Origin: Methanomassiliicoccaceae archaeon | GTDB taxonomy: Archaea; Thermoplasmatota; Thermoplasmata; Methanomassiliicoccales; Methanomethylophilaceae | Length of the DNA stretch: 64,000 nt | Direction: 5' to 3' | Assembly: GCA_034928305.1 (NCBI GenBank) | Contig: JAYFOZ010000005.1 | Location: 62,001 to 126,000, forward strand | In this document: positions 5,162 to 32,350 of the stretch, one piece after another | How positions within the stretch are numbered: position 1 is the first letter of the stretch | How the letters are laid out: the number at the start of each line of letters is the position of its first letter | Made by a program: the position numbers and the translations under genes | The notes under the pieces: model-generated | The model's input: only the letters and a program-made list of their open reading frames with translations | The model's database searches: none | Told to the model about the DNA's origin: nothing

Positions 5162-8100
5162 TCACTTGCGCGTGACCGCTCCCGGATTGGATTTCAGGTA
5201 AAATTCTACGGCGTCCCAATCGTCTTCCTGTTCTACCGACTTGCCGTCTTCCATAGATATCCCTAGGGACCTTGCCGTGTCGCCAAGGAACTTTTTCGCA
5301 CGGTCGGACCCTTTGAAATTCTCGACCTTGGAACCGGCGTATGAAAGTTTCCCGTCAAATGACCCAGATATCTTTGTTCCTTCAAATATGACCGCACGGG
5401 ACTGTCCTATCTCCGCTTTTATATGTTGTCTTATATAAAAATGGAGATTGTCCTGGGTGTTCAGCGCAAAAATTTCCTTGTGGATATTCTGCTTCTTTCC
5501 GACATCGGAAGAAAGGATCCATATTAGGGTCGGATCGTCCTTGATGAAGAAACCTTTCTTAAGCAACCCCTCTCTCTCGAGCGCAGCCAACGTAGACCGT
5601 ACCTCCGACATCCGGGCGGACATGAAGCGAGATAGGTTCTCGGCGGAGAATATCCCGAAATCTGAAAAATGACGTCTGGCTATTTCTTTAATAGCCTCTT
5701 CCCTCGATATTTTCGGCATCGGGATGATGCTGTAGTAAGAATCGGAATCCTGATGAATAACGGAAAGCTTGGACAGCGCGCTGAGAGCGTCTACGGTTCG
5801 GGACTGGGACAGAGGAGACCCCGACACGATCTCTTTTCTGGATATCGGCGAGTGGTTGGATATCATAGACAGTATCATCTTCTCGTCGCCTTCGATCTCT
5901 TCGGACTTCGCAGCCCTGTAAAGCTGTGCTGATTCCTTTGTTGTATAACCTATGAAAGCAGGGTAAAGAGCGGTCTTCACAAGATACCCGCGCTCCAACT
6001 GCTTCTTTATGGTTGTCTTGTCCAGCACCCTGGTGTATATCTCCTGGTCCCCTCGGATGTATCCGCGGGAAATGACCGCGTTCATCACTGTAGGGTACCT
6101 GTCATTCCCTCCCACACGCTGCTTCTCGAAAACGTAGCTCAGGAACTCGTCGTCGGTCATTGAATACTCGACGAAGTCGCCTTTCGCATAGAAGCCGTTG
6201 ACCATCAGATAGCCTGCTTCCTCCATCATCTTCTCCACATTCGGAGCTAGGAGAGCGGCGTCCTTGCCCATTACCTCCCTTATACGGACGATGTCCGTGT
6301 TCTTCATTTTGAAGAACAGCATTATATCGTCTATCGATGCGAGCGCTGCGGGAATGAGTTCCTCCGAGTCCAGGTCGAAGGACCTTATCTCTATGCATCC
6401 GGACATCTCCCACATCTCGACGGCCCCCACTACGGACGACCCCCTGACGAGCGGATATACCCAGCTATCGCCGTAACGCGCCGAAAGTTCGGCCCATTTG
6501 GAAGAAATGTCAGGGTCGAACGGAGTGCATAGGCGAATTTTTGCCTCGTGCCCGTGTATTCTCCCGAGAGCCTCTATCTCGTCATCGAAAACAAACATCT
6601 GAGTCTGTGAGTCTCCGACTATTATCTGCGAAGCCCCTATTTCGTCCATCAGCCTTTTCGCGTCCTCGGGAGCTATTCCCAGAGTATATCTGAGGGCCTG
6701 TGCGGGCAGTGGTCCGTAAGCCCGTACCGTCTGTTTTGCGAGCTCTGTAAGGGGGTCCCCTTCCGCCGTTCCCGGACGGTAGACCAGATATGTGTTCTCG
6801 GTCCCCCAGTCCTCTCTTTCTCCGAACGCCCTGACTATTCTGAGAGAGCGGTCCAGGCGGTAGACTGCCTCTTTGATAGCGTCCTTGTCCATCCTCATAG
6901 CGCCGACCAGCTGGCGCAGAGTGGCGGTACCCATGCCGTCGATCATGTTGAGTACCTTTTCATCTCCCGGCTGCGTTTCGTCTGACCTCAGGGCCGCGAA
7001 CCGGTCCGCATCTTCCGAAAGTACGTACCTCACGCGTCCGCGCATGAACCTCCCCAGAAGTATCCTTCCGGATTCCCTCATCTCCTGCCAATCTTTGAGT
7101 TTGAAGTCCTTGACGCGACTGAATACATCGATCTCGCTTCCTGCAGAACCGTAGAATTTGAAATAATCGACTATGTTGGAGAATTCGCGCCCTTTCGATG
7201 CGCGGTATTCCTCGACCGCCTCGAAACTGTAAATATTCTCCTTTCCGGCACGGAGCCTCATCCTGTCGATCTTCAGCATATACTGGTCGCCCTCGGATAT
7301 CAGGAATCTGCCCTTGGCCACATCCCCGCTGCTCAGAAGCGACTCCAGCGAGGCATGTGCATCTTCATCCGTCAGGGATAACGCGAACGCGATCTCGGCC
7401 GATGTGGCCGGCGCGAAACATTCCAGATGCCTCATTATTATGCGGTCCACGGCCGAGTTCCTGTCCATTGAGGTGTTGTCCGCCTTGGAATAGAGCCACT
7501 TCCCGTTGCCGGTGATGGCCGTCCTGGCAACCCTGTACATGGCCTCCAGCTTCCTTATGGAACGATATACGATGTCCTCGCTGATCTCCAGTGATTCGGA
7601 TATCTGGTTGATCGGCGTGTCCCTGGAGACCTCTTCTAAGACCTTGATGTCCGTGTCCGTCATCTCGCGTTCCTTGACGGTCGCGACCGCGTAGTACTGT
7701 ACCTCTTCTGCGGCCATCACATAGGGGTCGTCCATGAACACCGAACCTATCTTGCCTTCGGAGAACAGCTCCCTTATCCACTTGTCCACTGTCTTTTTGT
7801 CCTCGTCGGAATAAGAATAGATGTTCCTTCCGCGCTCGCGGAGCGCCTGGAGGGGGCCTGTCCGCATCAGCATCGGAACAATATCGTCCTTGGTCTGTAT
7901 GCGTCCGATCTTCTCCCTGAAGTACGGTATGATATGGTCCTCATCGAATTCGAACTCTTTTACGGCATCCCCGAGCGCGCGATAGAGGACCTTGCGGTGC
8001 AGCTCCCTCAGGAGTGCGGACCGGTCCTCCATTAGCACAATGTCCGAGAAGCTCGAGATTATCGCGCTGTGCGCGAAGGGCGACGGCGTTCCCGTGAACA

Positions 8101-27691: not shown

Positions 27692-29011
27692 TTAGCTACG
27701 GCTATTGACGAACTCAACGGGCTGTTCCTCGCCCATCCTCTTGAGGGGTTTGGAAAGGTGCCTGCGTGCCGACGTGGGCGGTTCATACCATCCCGGGACG
27801 ATCCATCTGATGTTCTCCCTTGTCAACGGTTCTTTGGAGTCGGTCCCGCACCTGCGGCAACGATATCCTTTCCCTTTTCCGATGGACTCCATGGTCCTCC
27901 CGCAGGTCGCGCAGAACGGATTGGATACTTTCTCGAACTCTCTGACCGTCCGAATGACCTTCATTTTCTCAACATTGATGGTCCTCGGTTCGGTCCGGAG
28001 TTCTCCCATCACACCTATGCGGTCGCCGGGAACCAACCATTCGAACGCCGATCTGAACTCTTTGGAGGGTTCGTATGCGGTACATTCTATGGTCCCGTAC
28101 ATCGTTTCGAGTCCTATGACCACGTGTCCTCCGGGAAGGTGGCGCCTCGAAAGGACGGTTCCTTCGATGTAATACGCACTCATCTGTTCCAAGACCTTTG
28201 GGCGGAAGATGATGTGGTCGTCGGTGCCTTGGTTTGTCAAAAATATAAAACTGCGTTCCAAGGGTTCCGTACGAATCAGGCGGGATGCGGGGGGAAGATC
28301 TTCGACCGAATCTCCGCGAAGGCCGTACATTACCGGGCACGGTGTCCCGGGAACCATTGCCACCTTCTGGAACCTCTCTTCCCAGCTGTTGAACGTCGAT
28401 GGGAATGCACGGTCCATCTCGCCGATGGATCCTGTTTCAAGTATCCTGTCCGTACCCCATCTGTCCCTTGGACGATATGTTATGAGTTCATAGGTGCTGT
28501 CGCGGGGCCTCCATGACATTCCGCATGTGGAACCGATTATCCCCCGGCCATCGCCAAATCCGCAACGCAGCGCGCCGATCCGATCGAGCTCTTCCTCTAT
28601 ATCGCTTTTTTCCACGATTCTGCGGACTCCCTTCCAATAATAGGACGGTGACGGTTTTTTTTCTGAAACCACAATTCCTGAATCTGACGAATAGTGACGG
28701 TTTTTTTTCAGTATTGGTATTATTTTTTGCAAAAGATCGTCCGCGTCCGGCTCCTTCCGAAGCTGTCTTTCGAAACAGAAAATATCGCGTCCGGAAATTT
28801 CACCTATTTTTATTTTTCTTCCGGCCCCGCGGCCGAACCTAAGCGATAGGGACCCGTTACCCCTTGTTTTCCAGGGTACTGCAGGATTGAGGCGCACCAA
28901 CCTGGGATAGCCTATAAGGTCCAATTCTTCAACTTCCTTCATGATCTCTGTGGCCAGAAACGTAGTGCACAGGCCCTGATTCGAGTCCGTGTCGTCGAAT
29001 GAAACGTACAC
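27692..29011 (-). CDS. tiaS: tRNA(Ile2) 2-agmatinylcytidine synthetase
   Basis: 439 residues. TiaS attaches agmatine to C34 of tRNA-Ile(CAU) so that it reads AUA codons, an archaeal-specific modification. Begins VSFDDTDSNQGLCTTFLA (kinase-like TCKD start), RLNPAVPWKTRGNGSLSL, GFGDGRGIIGS, an OB-fold region (EGTVLSRRHLPGGHVVIGLETMYGTIEC) and a C-terminal zinc ribbon (CATCGRTMESIGKGKGYRCRRC, residues in part). The GTG start at 29011 is preferred: it lies right before the conserved FDDTDS. Promoter A+T stretch near 29032. Confidence 0.93.
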   Translation of the reverse strand: MYVSFDDTDSNQGLCTTFLATEIMKEVEELDLIGYPRLVRLNPAVPWKTRGNGSLSLRFGRGAGRKIKIGEISGRDIFCFERQLRKEPDADDLLQKIIPILKKNRHYSSDSGIVVSEKKPSPSYYWKGVRRIVEKSDIEEELDRIGALRCGFGDGRGIIGSTCGMSWRPRDSTYELITYRPRDRWGTDRILETGSIGEMDRAFPSTFNSWEERFQKVAMVPGTPCPVMYGLRGDSVEDLPPASRLIRTEPLERSFIFLTNQGTDDHIIFRPKVLEQMSAYYIEGTVLSRRHLPGGHVVIGLETMYGTIECTAYEPSKEFRSAFEWLVPGDRIGVMGELRTEPRTINVEKMKVIRTVREFEKVSNPFCATCGRTMESIGKGKGYRCRRCGTDSKEPLTRENIRWIVPGWYEPPTSARRHLSKPLKRMGEEQPVEFVNSRS

Positions 29012-29037: not shown

Positions 29038-29352
29038 TTATTGATGTTCCGCTAGTACCATCTTTTTGATAAACGTCAAGCTCCCATCATCGGAAAAATT
29101 TCCCGATACCATATACAAACCGAGTTCTATCGGTCTTACAGAGTAAAAACATCTGAACTTCGAGCCGTCCGAGGTTTCGAGCATAAAAACAAAGCCGTTT
29201 TCGGTTTCTTTAATATCAAAAACGATGCAAACGACGTCGTCGTTTTTGTTTTCCCGTTCTGAATTTGTATTCAAAACAGACCATGCCAAAACAAGTGCAA
29301 GCAATAAAGATACGGATATGATGAAATATTTGTCCTTCAGAATGCCTGGCAT
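29038..29352 (-). CDS. Small membrane-anchored protein with OB-fold-like domain
   Basis: 104 residues. One N-terminal membrane helix (YFIISVSLLLALVLAWSVL) followed by a ~70-residue beta-rich domain whose pattern (VVCIVFDIKETENGFVFML, then GSKFRCFYS and GLYMVSGNF) resembles an OB fold. The orientation of the helix, and so the side on which the domain lies, is uncertain. The gene is A+T-rich like orc1, and an ORB-like element lies just upstream of its promoter. I do not recognise the family; nucleic-acid binding is inference. Confidence 0.6.
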   Translation of the reverse strand: MPGILKDKYFIISVSLLLALVLAWSVLNTNSERENKNDDVVCIVFDIKETENGFVFMLETSDGSKFRCFYSVRPIELGLYMVSGNFSDDGSLTFIKKMVLAEHQ

Positions 29353-29406
29353 GAACCATAGAAATCGATTTACGATATCAGTGGTACAATTACAGTTAAC
29401 CTGAGT

Positions 29407-29430
29407 ACCCCCACCCCTTCATTTCCACTG
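29407..29430 (-). other. Origin-recognition-box-like element, left copy
   Basis: On the minus strand it reads CAGTGGAAATGAAGGGG followed by TGGGGGT: half of the ORB dyad plus the G-string. All 24 bp are repeated exactly, inverted, at 30958-30981. The dyad arm is imperfect here (TTGCAGTGGAA). The G-string points away from orc1. Confidence 0.75.
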
Positions 29431-29473
29431 CAACCTGTAGAAAGAAGGTTGGTTGAATAAAATATAAAAAAAA

Positions 29474-29566
29474 TCAGGATAAAATTGCAATCAAATACAG
29501 AATTCCTATGAATAGAGAAATTCCGAGAACACATGTACCGATTACGATTATTGCTTTATGTTTCAT
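29474..29566 (-). CDS. Possible 30-residue membrane peptide
   Basis: Short open frame encoding a basic start (MKHKA), then an almost uninterrupted hydrophobic stretch (IIVIGTCVLGISLFIGILYL) and ending AILS. AGGAAT about 8 nt before the ATG could bind ribosomes. It is short and lies in A+T-rich DNA, where such frames arise by chance, so the call is tentative. Confidence 0.3.
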   Translation of the reverse strand: MKHKAIIVIGTCVLGISLFIGILYLIAILS

Positions 29567-29700
29567 GATATTCATTCCTGTTTGATTATCATGGAAATAC
29601 AATTTAATTATAAAATGAGTGCATAGGATGAATAGTAAAAATAATGTTTATCGGTTTTGAAAAACATTATATGCTAGCTGTTAATACATAGGAAAGTGCG

Positions 29701-30945
29701 GTGTTTCCTTTGAATGACGGAGAATCTATATTCAAACATTATATGGATAAAAGAAACCCGCTTGTAAGGAACAAAAGGATCCTTCAATCATCATATATTC
29801 CCGAGCAGCTACCTCATAGAGAAGCACAGATAAAAGAGATCGTCGAGATAGTTGCACCTTCTTTGGTAAAAGATAAGCCCTCGAATATTTTGATCATAGG
29901 AAAAACCGGAACAGGAAAAACCGCTGTTGTAAAATATATCGGAAAAGAATTAAAAAAAGCCGATGAAAACGAAGAAAATTGTTCTTTCATTTACATAAAT
30001 TGTGAAGTCGTCGATACTCCTTATGGAATTCTGTATAATATCGGAAATCAGATAATAAGGGATGAAACGAAAAGCATTCCATTCACCGGATGGAGTCTGG
30101 ACAGAGTATTCAGTGAACTGACAAAATATGTAGATAAAGAAAATAAAATCTATATTATTGTCTTAGATGAAATCGACAGATCCTTCCAAAAGAATGGAGA
30201 CGACATCTTTTATTTTTTAACGACGATAAATGAAGTTTTGGAAAAGTCCAAAGTATCCATAATAGGAATAAGCAATAATCCTAAATTTACTGAATTTCTA
30301 GATCCAAAAATCAAAAGCAGATTGGGTGAAGAAAAAATTATTTTTCCTCCGTATAATACACTCCAATTGGAAGATATCCTTAAAGACAGATCGAAGGATG
30401 CTTTTGAACCCGGAATTCTTTCAGAAGGTGTAGTTTCTTATTGTGCCGCTCTTGCCGCTCAAGATATGGGTGATGCAAGAAGAGCTCTCGATCTTTTAAG
30501 AATAGCTTCGGATATCGCAGAAAGAAATAATGATAATGTTATTACCGAAGCACATGTAAAATATGCAAAAAACAAAATCGAACTCGATGCTGTTTCCGAA
30601 GTAGTAAGAACGTTGACACCACAATCAAAAACAGTGTTGATGAGTATAGTAATAAACACAGAAAATGACAATCCCACAATGAATACGGGAGACGTTTTCA
30701 CAACATACAAACACATTTCTGAAATAATCGAATCTTCGATCCTTACACAGAGAAGAGTTGCAGGTCTGATATCCGAATTGGATATGATGGGTATAATCCA
30801 TGCACGGGTAAAATCGTTCGGACGTGCCGGAAGAACAAGAGAGATTGAATTAGGAAGCAAAGAGATCATAGATCTGATCAAATCAGATGTTCTTTTTAAG
30901 AAATTAAAAAATTACAAGAACGTAAAACAAACCACACTCATATGA
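29701..30945 (+). CDS. orc1: Orc1/Cdc6 replication initiator
   Basis: 414 residues, AAA+ initiator with C-terminal winged helix. Walker A IIGKTGTGKTAVVKY near residue 66, Walker B IIVLDEIDRSF, sensor 1 GISNNPKF, sensor 2 region DMGDARRALDLLRIA, and a winged helix around TYKHISEIIESSILTQRRVAGLISELDMMGII. It binds ORB elements and loads MCM. GTG start at 29701, about 30 bp after TATA-like CATTATATG. Codon use is strikingly A+T-rich relative to flanking genes. The stop is followed within 10 bp by the right ORB. Confidence 0.95.
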   Translation: MFPLNDGESIFKHYMDKRNPLVRNKRILQSSYIPEQLPHREAQIKEIVEIVAPSLVKDKPSNILIIGKTGTGKTAVVKYIGKELKKADENEENCSFIYINCEVVDTPYGILYNIGNQIIRDETKSIPFTGWSLDRVFSELTKYVDKENKIYIIVLDEIDRSFQKNGDDIFYFLTTINEVLEKSKVSIIGISNNPKFTEFLDPKIKSRLGEEKIIFPPYNTLQLEDILKDRSKDAFEPGILSEGVVSYCAALAAQDMGDARRALDLLRIASDIAERNNDNVITEAHVKYAKNKIELDAVSEVVRTLTPQSKTVLMSIVINTENDNPTMNTGDVFTTYKHISEIIESSILTQRRVAGLISELDMMGIIHARVKSFGRAGRTREIELGSKEIIDLIKSDVLFKKLKNYKNVKQTTLI

Positions 30946-30954
30946 TTTTTTCAC

Positions 30955-30981
30955 TTCCAGTGGAAATGAAGGGGTGGGGGT
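30955..30981 (+). other. Origin-recognition-box-like element, right copy
   Basis: Dyad TTCCAGTGGAA (30955-30965) followed by ATGAAGGGGTGGGGG: close to the archaeal ORB layout of TTCCA-TGGAA dyad plus G-string. It lies between the convergent ends of orc1 and the signal peptidase gene, with the G-string pointing away from orc1. Confidence 0.82.
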
Positions 30982-30992
30982 TTTTTAATGGA

Positions 30993-31832
30993 TTATAATC
31001 TTTTTCCTCTTTTTTCTAGAATTATTCCCATGTAAATAATATAGAACGAAGAAAATATCAGCAATATGGTAAGTGTAAATATTGCAAGGTCCGGAATACT
31101 GTTCGGAGCATAATTATCCACTGCAACTCCTTTTCCTTCCAAGATAAGTTTTATGCTTCCGATCCACGGTATTTCCAATACGGGTACCGACACGATCATA
31201 CTGTACGTCACAAGCTCTGATATTATAAACTCGGAATTAGAGGACCGACTTTGATCGACAATCGAATTGTTATCGCCCATCGTCACATACCCAGACACTC
31301 CTGTTTCTGTTTCACTTAATATAAATTCGATATCGATATCCACATCGATACCGCGATATCCGACATCATACAGGGTTATGTCTTCCCTCAGCATCTCCGG
31401 GTCCAGTTCCGTGTCAGGGAAGTCCGTGCTGCCCCATGAATCATATGTATCAAGATTTGGAATGCTGGCATATTTTCCAGAAGAGTCCTCTTTTACTTCT
31501 ATGATCAGAAGCGCGCGATGTATTACGCTGGAATCGTTATTTGTTTTGTATATAATGACGCTGCCATAATCTCCGAAGGTCATGAAACCAGTTTCCAGGC
31601 CCTGAAGATATGTCTGTATTTCTACTCTGGATCGGTCTCTTACAAAAACCAAATCGCCCGTATCTATAACTCCGATGTCCGAACGATCATCGTCATGCTG
31701 CATACTTTGTGAAGTTATAACGGAAAAATGGGGGTCGTGTCCGGAATAAAAATGCGTGCCGGCATACGAACACATGAAGAACAAAAAAATGACCGCGACC
31801 GCAATCATTGTGTTTCTGTCCTCTCGGCTCAT
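30993..31832 (-). CDS. Type I signal peptidase (archaeal/Sec11-like)
   Basis: 279 residues from ATG at 31832 (MSREDRNT); an in-frame start 15 bp earlier is possible. N-terminal membrane helix (MIAVAVIFLFFMCSYAGTHF), catalytic Ser in VITSQSMQ, His (in place of bacterial Lys) in SSVIHRALLI, Asp in GYVTMGDNNSIVDQS, and a C-terminal helix pair region ending SFYIIYMGIILEKRGKRL. Cleaves Sec signal peptides at the outer face of the membrane. A+T-rich like orc1, convergent with it. Confidence 0.85.
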   Translation of the reverse strand: MSREDRNTMIAVAVIFLFFMCSYAGTHFYSGHDPHFSVITSQSMQHDDDRSDIGVIDTGDLVFVRDRSRVEIQTYLQGLETGFMTFGDYGSVIIYKTNNDSSVIHRALLIIEVKEDSSGKYASIPNLDTYDSWGSTDFPDTELDPEMLREDITLYDVGYRGIDVDIDIEFILSETETGVSGYVTMGDNNSIVDQSRSSNSEFIISELVTYSMIVSVPVLEIPWIGSIKLILEGKGVAVDNYAPNSIPDLAIFTLTILLIFSSFYIIYMGIILEKRGKRL

Positions 31833-31903
31833 ATATATGTAACACAACTGAGTTATTTTAAGACTCTCAATCGATAAATAGGAAAATACCCATAAGGCGT
31901 GTG

Positions 31904-32350
31904 ATGGAAAGGCCCTCTAACGACGAGTACTTTATGAGCATGGCCAAGCTTGTGGCCACCAGGTCCACATGCATACGCAGACAGGTCGGAGCCGTTGTAG
32001 TCAAAGAAAAAAGGGTATTGTCCACAGGTTACAACGGAGCTCCAAAGGGGTCCAGGCATTGCGAAGAGCTTGGATGCATCCGCGAGATACTCGACGTGCC
32101 CTCCGGGACCAGGCATGAGCTTTGCAGGGGCGTGCATGCGGAGCAGAATGCGGTGGTTCAGGCGGCATATTTCGGTGTCAGCGTAAAAGATGCTTCGATA
32201 TACACGACCACTTACCCCTGCTCGATGTGCGCCAAAATAATAATCAATGCAGGGATAACCGAAATAGTATACGGCGAGGGATATCCCGACAATCTGTCCA
32301 AGGATCTGTTAGAAGAATCGGGCCTGATCGTAAGAAAATACCCTGCGTGA
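31904..32350 (+). CDS. dCMP deaminase family protein
   Basis: 148 residues of the zinc cytidine-deaminase superfamily. Zinc and catalytic motif [13 protein letters not shown] (HAE) and [14 protein letters not shown]. The [10 protein letters not shown] segment fits the dCMP-deaminase/ComEB type, with an extra cysteine site. Supplies dUMP for thymidylate synthesis. Adjacent start codons GTG (31901) and ATG (31904); the ATG is used here. Precedes the ATP synthase promoter. Confidence 0.9.

Follow-up and report, generated by a model that had tools for sequence, protein, structure and literature searches.

Inverted ORBs enclose a gene at predicted oriC1-type replication origins of Methanomassiliicoccales

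The orc1/cdc6.1 locus of a Methanomassiliicoccaceae archaeon, a gut-type methanogen, is very likely a chromosomal replication origin, and probably the main one. It belongs to the oriC1 type, a kind already known, but has its initiator gene enclosed between two inverted ORBs. The locus lies in a stretch of 64,000 nucleotides (the window; Table 1). Methanomassiliicoccales origins have been predicted from ORBs beside orc1/cdc6.1 in three species in the available text of Borrel et al. 2014 (PMC4153887), and hence the window origin is a further member of a published kind. Taken as a whole, the evidence makes it likely that this oriC1-type origin is an ORB-bordered, gene-containing cassette that experiences A/T pressure and is occasionally flipped.

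The two ORBs form an inverted repeat of 27 nt, complementary at 26 of 27 positions (96%), which stands out alone in an inverted-repeat search of 28.5–31.5 kb. The repeat includes an exact 21-mer, GTGGAAATGAAGGGGTGGGGG, at 29408–29428 on the minus strand and 30960–30980 on the plus strand. The original prediction, an exact inverted repeat of 24 bp around orc1 with outward G-strings and a full dyad in the right copy, therefore holds with a slightly longer repeat. The core reads TTCCAGTGGAA on the right and TTGCAGTGGAA on the left, the difference being confined to the left half-dyad, and GGGGTGGGGG ends each copy, directed away from orc1. A distance of 268 nt separates the left ORB from orc1. The right ORB occupies the 47-nt gap between the convergent 3' ends of orc1 and a signal-peptidase-like ORF, and is followed by a T-run.

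The pair is unique to this locus. With up to three mismatches, the 21-mer has two matches in the window compared with a mean of 0.01 in shuffled windows (0 of 100 shuffles reach two). At the same tolerance the 20-mer ORB core has two matches in the entire genome (1,335,961 bases), both at orc1, and its reversed control has none; scattered copies, for which a genome-wide hunt had been proposed, are thus absent at this stringency. The bare core TTCCAGTGGAA is not quite specific, occurring at four places in the genome versus two for its control, and was dropped as a genome-wide origin marker. Position 102583 of contig C3 was likewise dropped as an extra ORB; with 18.6 bits and a position within an ORF, it has the look of a coincidental match in coding sequence.

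Table 1. Features of the origin locus, in window coordinates.
Feature	Position	Strand	Description
TiaS gene	27692..29011	-	Profile match; left-flank marker for orientation
Small ORF outside left ORB	29038..29352	-	104 aa; a 104-aa ORF is at the same place in G015
Left ORB	29407..29433	-	TTGCAGTGGAAATGAAGGGGTGGGGGT on the minus strand; G-string leftward (outward); PWM 43.6 of 46.1 bits
ORB-bounded interval	29434..30954		About 1.52 kb, A+T-rich; sometimes inverted in relatives
A+T-rich intergenic stretch, left ORB to orc1	29434..29700		267 bp; GC about 0.28 at 29500-29799; probable unwinding element and orc1 promoter
orc1/cdc6.1	29701..30945	+	GTG start, 414 aa; AAA+, lid, winged helix; NF001625 504 bits vs cut-off 501
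Right ORB	30955..30981	+	TTCCAGTGGAAATGAAGGGGTGGGGGT; full dyad; G-string rightward (outward); PWM 46.1 bits
Signal-peptidase-like ORF outside right ORB	30993..31847	-	TIGR02228 24 bits, below cut-off; second lowest GC3 in contig core
dCMP/cytidine deaminase-like gene	31901..32350	+	Right-flank marker

Nucleotide skew changes sign at the locus. On the window's own contig (147,010 bases, orc1 at 91.7 kb), which is one contig and not the whole chromosome, cumulative skew in 500-bp steps is lowest at 91.5 kb for G-C (window 29.5 kb) and at 91.0 kb for A-T (window 29.0 kb). This agrees with G015, which shares family and layout with the window and is a single contig of 1,516,968 bases (orc1 at 64.3–65.5 kb). 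In 20 sampled stretches of 15 kb, GC skew is positive in 8 of 10 on the right arm and negative in 10 of 10 on the left (Mann–Whitney p = 0.00025). Cumulative G-C in G015 has a local minimum at kb 65 (within 1–115 kb), and its maximum within 720–835 kb, at 801 kb, is close to the position half a chromosome away from the origin (about 823 kb). The switch is weaker in G020 (right arm positive in 10/10, left negative in 5/10, p = 0.064, the best split being some 80 kb away from orc1) and mixed in G036, which has an ORB pair around hflX instead of orc1 and where the A-T minimum (1049 kb) is at the locus but the G-C minimum is not. Together, ORB uniqueness and the skew minimum support the candidate origin proposed originally.

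Other features of oriC1-type origins are also present. The adjacent gene encodes a full-length Orc1/Cdc6 with AAA+ and winged-helix domains, whose closest solved structures are the Orc1 proteins 2qby_A and 2v1u_A; the nearest named loci by Orc1 are those of the Methanomassiliicoccaceae MAGs UBA370, UBA421 and UBA72 (94–95% identity). At least two inverted ORBs carry dyad and G-string, their consensus having been compared with Table 2 of PMC4153887 (the paper being available in part). The DNA between them is A+T-rich, as first noticed, with GC of 0.28–0.39 in 200-bp windows versus about 0.53–0.59 in most 5-kb bins of the contig, as would suit an unwinding element, and GC is lower inside than in the outer flanks in 43/43 loci of this layout. 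A usual but not defining trait, ORBs close together within one intergenic region, is replaced here by ORBs 1.52 kb apart with a gene inside. No ORB of at least 5 bits is found near the second paralog, orc1/cdc6.2, in 6/6 such loci, and this gene was dropped as a second origin. The ISO4-H5 genome paper, in the text available, likewise reports no ORB at cdc6.2, against two downstream of cdc6.1. Elsewhere at the locus, the 104-aa ORF has no Pfam or NCBIfam match. At 135–147 kb of the contig, past the window end at 126 kb, GC is 0.38–0.47 with low-GC3 ORFs near the contig end, possibly a foreign island.

The wide spacing is general in the order. We searched 147 genomes, 124 of which have an Orc1.1 match at E ≤1e-100, and assigned layouts to 83 of these loci by means of a PWM derived from 57 ORBs. 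Over 680 kb of other sequence, taken from three genomes of the set, this PWM gives a single match of at least 10 bits (12.6). Outward ORB pairs are present in 77/83 loci, 43 around orc1, 33 around hflX (identified by TIGR03156, 290 bits against a cut-off of 217) and one without a gene; in 76/83 the pair encloses a gene and is 1.3–2.2 kb apart (1448–1864 nt in orc1-type and 1278–2192 nt in hflX-type loci). The 43 orc1-type loci, window included, form one clade in which hflX is gone and orc1 is inside the bracket. In the 33 hflX-type loci orc1 is outside, usually with an extra ORB 51–75 nt before it; G121 and G137 were put in this type by hand, since the ORB nearest to orc1 also reads weakly in reverse and so upset the rule. 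Three of the six unclassified loci (G048, G119 and G120) end at contig ends, and in the other three the left ORB was not found in the available upstream bases (G061, 463; G067, 934; G019, 760), G019 counting against the cassette view.

Several observations attach to this survey. In G029 the ORB pair is 253 bp apart (locus L115, 6451–6704), with 21% GC and no gene between, and its loss of hflX is independent of the window's clade. In hflX-type loci (L111–L114, L109) the far-left ORB mostly ends GGGGTCCCCC or similar, compared with GGGGTGGG in right ORBs, and the two sides may differ in affinity. A search for an extra conserved motif in 43 upstream stretches gave best 7- and 8-mers whose genus counts do not exceed those of shuffles; a 9-mer, TTATAAAAT, occurs in five genera against a shuffle maximum of four and looks like a TATA-type element.

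The gene in the bracket has been exchanged. In an Orc1 tree every orc1-type locus is on one side of one branch (support 100/100). hflX is absent from the window's family except G014 and G018, and also absent from G029 (41 genomes searched, E ≤1e-30); two genera of the family (g10 and g14) keep the hflX layout. The single branch and the distribution of hflX place its loss and the entry of orc1 into the bracket once, within the window's family. The bracketed gene in the ancestor of the order was probably hflX. Long end branches are seen within the orc1-type clade of the tree (G086, 0.61; G017, 0.43; G095, 0.35), which may reflect quicker evolution of Orc1 within the bracket.

Beyond the order, we examined 20 loci at class level, 18 families contributing one each and f18 two. 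The order-trained PWM finds outward pairs in three of the 20, around hflX in G172, another ORF in G153 and orc1 in G162, and an unbiased inverted-repeat search at this level gave no general pattern. The layout is therefore claimed for the order only. G162 is a weak case, alone in its family, with a left ORB of 13.5 bits and right ORBs within the downstream ORF. Its ORB-like sites (locus L229, around 4274 and 6022–6109), together with low orc1 GC3, may mark an independent orc1-bracketing origin.

Low GC3 tracks the bracket and not the identity of the gene. Measured against nearby genes in each locus (thiolase, TiaS, deaminase and V-ATPase I), the GC3 of orc1 differs by a mean of -0.156 inside the bracket (negative in 42/43) and +0.002 outside it (negative in 13/32), and that of bracketed hflX by -0.151 (negative in 32/32). 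Genus means of orc1 GC3 are without overlap between 11 orc1-type and 15 hflX-type genera (U = 0), and the window orc1, at 0.30, is lowest among the 108 ORFs of at least 150 aa on its contig. The GC dip spans the ORB-bounded interval and fades over about 500–750 bp beyond. At third positions A and T rise equally (+0.078 each), a pattern not expected from a simple deamination bias on one strand, and the amino-acid composition of Orc1 shows no shift (p = 0.47). At class level the three loci possessing hflX have hflX GC3 differences of -0.23, -0.15 and -0.04. Since the tree holds one swap, the GC3 contrast counts phylogenetically as a single comparison, to which G162 adds a second, weak case. We lean slightly towards origin function as the cause of the A/T pressure.

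The extent of the A+T shift bears on which part of the locus works as the origin. This could be the left ORB and the adjoining A+T-rich stretch only, the downstream ORB acting as a regulatory or titration site or being terminator-like. The upstream intergenic stretch does have GC values among the lowest, the T-run follows the right ORB, and a negative role is described, in the part of the paper available, for an ORB-rich region downstream of oriC2-cdc6E in Haloarcula hispanica (PMC3936714). Such a division of labour is nonetheless unlikely given two ORBs that are near-identical, unique in the genome and co-varying within genomes, a pair whose polarity is kept in 43 loci, and an A+T shift that fills the entire interval, coding silent sites included. 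On balance, the extended gene-containing cassette appears to be the functional unit.

The low GC3 could also be a property of the orc1 lineage, arising from codon usage or relaxed selection and unrelated to ORBs. As the orc1 type is a single clade, clade and layout are inseparable there. In other loci, a bracketed hflX is shifted to the same extent and the orc1 next to it is not; G029, which has lost hflX but has orc1 outside the bracket, has no drop in orc1 GC3 (-0.015); and G162, the sole class-level locus with an ORB pair around orc1, is also the sole one with a strong drop (-0.19), the other 19 ranging from -0.06 to +0.21. We consider a lineage effect improbable, and the position of the gene between ORBs remains the reading that we prefer.

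The bracketed segment is flipped in some genomes. Among orc1-type genomes, 66 have the normal orientation, six are flipped, two are otherwise arranged and six do not have both markers on one contig; the corresponding numbers for the hflX type, with G029, are 37, 0, 1 and 6 (Orc1 and TiaS tables, 124 genomes, those beyond the fetched loci being assigned to type by clade). Flips thus number 6/72 versus 0/37 (Fisher p = 0.094). The flipped genomes (G005, G013, G017, G060, G067 and G126) represent five genera. In G005, G013, G017 and G067, TiaS is downstream of orc1 on the same strand, whereas normally it is upstream on the opposite strand, and in all four the normal left flank adjoins the right ORB in reverse, so that the flanks are exchanged. 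The inside is colinear with normal relatives in G005, G013 and G017, the three of these with both ORBs (G067 having no left ORB). Within the window's own genus (g1), the orc1 segment of G005 (L129) is inverted relative to the window (G000, L005) and G002–G004. Separately, hflX is on the other strand in the hflX-type G027.

Assembly errors across inverted repeats would mimic such flips. Five of the six flipped genomes are indeed in 50–90 contigs, and in G126, whose flip is less sure, a second, partial match to orc1 points to mixed strains. G060, however, is flipped in a single contig with an ORB at the junction, between orc1 and TiaS, and a 27-bp repeat is shorter than the k-mers usually employed in assembly. 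We regard misassembly as a poor explanation for the flips. A further observation is that the left and right ORBs of a genome match each other at 25.28 of 27 positions, compared with 21.83 between genera (0/5000 permutations match this). Were inverted ORBs to recombine, perhaps at young forks, both the flips and the matching would be accounted for, whereas co-evolution with the initiator would account for the matching alone. We infer that the flips probably arise by recombination between the ORBs.

That there is no origin here and the inverted repeat is an orc1 autoregulatory operator or a bidirectional terminator is very hard to credit: the right ORB does lie between convergent genes, and autoregulation is plausible where an ORB lies just before orc1, as in most hflX-type genomes, but the skew minima at the locus, the distance of the left ORB from orc1 and the agreement with published archaeal ORBs and predicted origins all stand against it.

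How might such a cassette operate? The sites, their uniqueness, polarity and conservation, the skew minimum and the A+T-richness are the observed elements; Orc1 binding, MCM loading and firing at the window locus are to be expected by analogy with characterised archaeal origins. Orc1/Cdc6.1, encoded inside the bracket, would bind each ORB as a polar complex and direct MCM loading into the A+T-rich DNA between them, from which forks would depart in both directions. In the window's clade the two ORBs, about 1.4–1.9 kb apart, would be the borders of one origin cassette holding a whole gene. Meltability of the cassette, or a local mutation bias from initiation, would drive the silent sites of the enclosed gene towards A/T. 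The borders, being inverted copies, could recombine, which would now and then flip the cassette and would keep both copies alike, the flipped cassette presenting the same origin geometry. The cassette gene would have changed from hflX in the ancestor of the order to orc1 in the window's clade. Extended to the whole order, the proposal is tentative: its origin may be an invertible gene-containing cassette whose content was swapped while borders, polarity and silent-site A/T pressure were kept, in which case archaeal origins could be extended and orientation-neutral, with a gene doubling as melting or initiation zone.

Archaeal origins have been treated as compact intergenic units on the basis of few models, and here a whole order appears to space its ORBs more than 1 kb apart. 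An exchangeable, flippable gene between ORBs is a natural experiment on what inter-ORB DNA must provide. Culturable gut methanogens make it possible to test rules of spacing and polarity, and the low GC3 of whichever gene is enclosed offers a sequence signature for locating origins in metagenome-assembled genomes. A search of the open-access literature, subscription journals being mostly outside its scope, found no report of the hflX-bracketing layout, of GC3 shifts or of inversions of archaeal origin cassettes.

The closest published relatives are the Methanomassiliicoccales origins of PMC4153887, here compared through the available parts of that paper. They share the order, the ORB consensus GTTCCAGTGGAAATGG-AGGGGT, the initiator paralog and the restriction of ORBs to the surroundings of one of the two orc1/cdc6 genes. 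‘Ca. M. alvus’ has ORB pairs both upstream and downstream of orc1/cdc6.1, two ORBs per side where the window has one, and the ORBs of ‘Ca. M. intestinalis’ are 256 bp apart, similar to the 253 bp of G029. The bracket, the hflX layout, the A+T shift and the inversions are absent from the genome-replication section of that paper. Haloarchaeal oriC1 is also similar, with inverted G-string-bearing ORBs beside cdc6, and its neighbours include, in a review figure legend, genes for a GTP-binding protein and a signal peptidase; some predicted haloarchaeal or orc-cdc6-adjacent origins have ORBs in both intergenic regions around the gene (PMC3528665, PMC3936714, PMC4010727). The available portions of these papers place haloarchaeal ORBs mostly upstream of the gene and mention no exchange of a bracketed gene and no shift in base composition. 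The orc1 of a Haloferax lucentense plasmid has inverted repeats with outward G-strings 233 nt apart. As outward G-strings are found in this plasmid, in G029 and in pairs across the order, the polarity is ordinary, the unusual traits being the distance and the enclosed gene. In model origins the ORBs are much closer together than in the window. The oriC1 of Saccharolobus/Sulfolobus, as presented in the accessible text of PMC12141716, has, beside orc1-1, an A+T-rich unwinding element with inverted ORBs, bound by Orc1-1, on either side, and MCM is directed between these ORBs; no shared motif of the ucm kind was found in the upstream stretches of our loci. Its ORB3-DUE-ORB2 unit measures about 130 bp and holds no gene, whereas that of the window measures about 1.5 kb and has the initiator gene inside.
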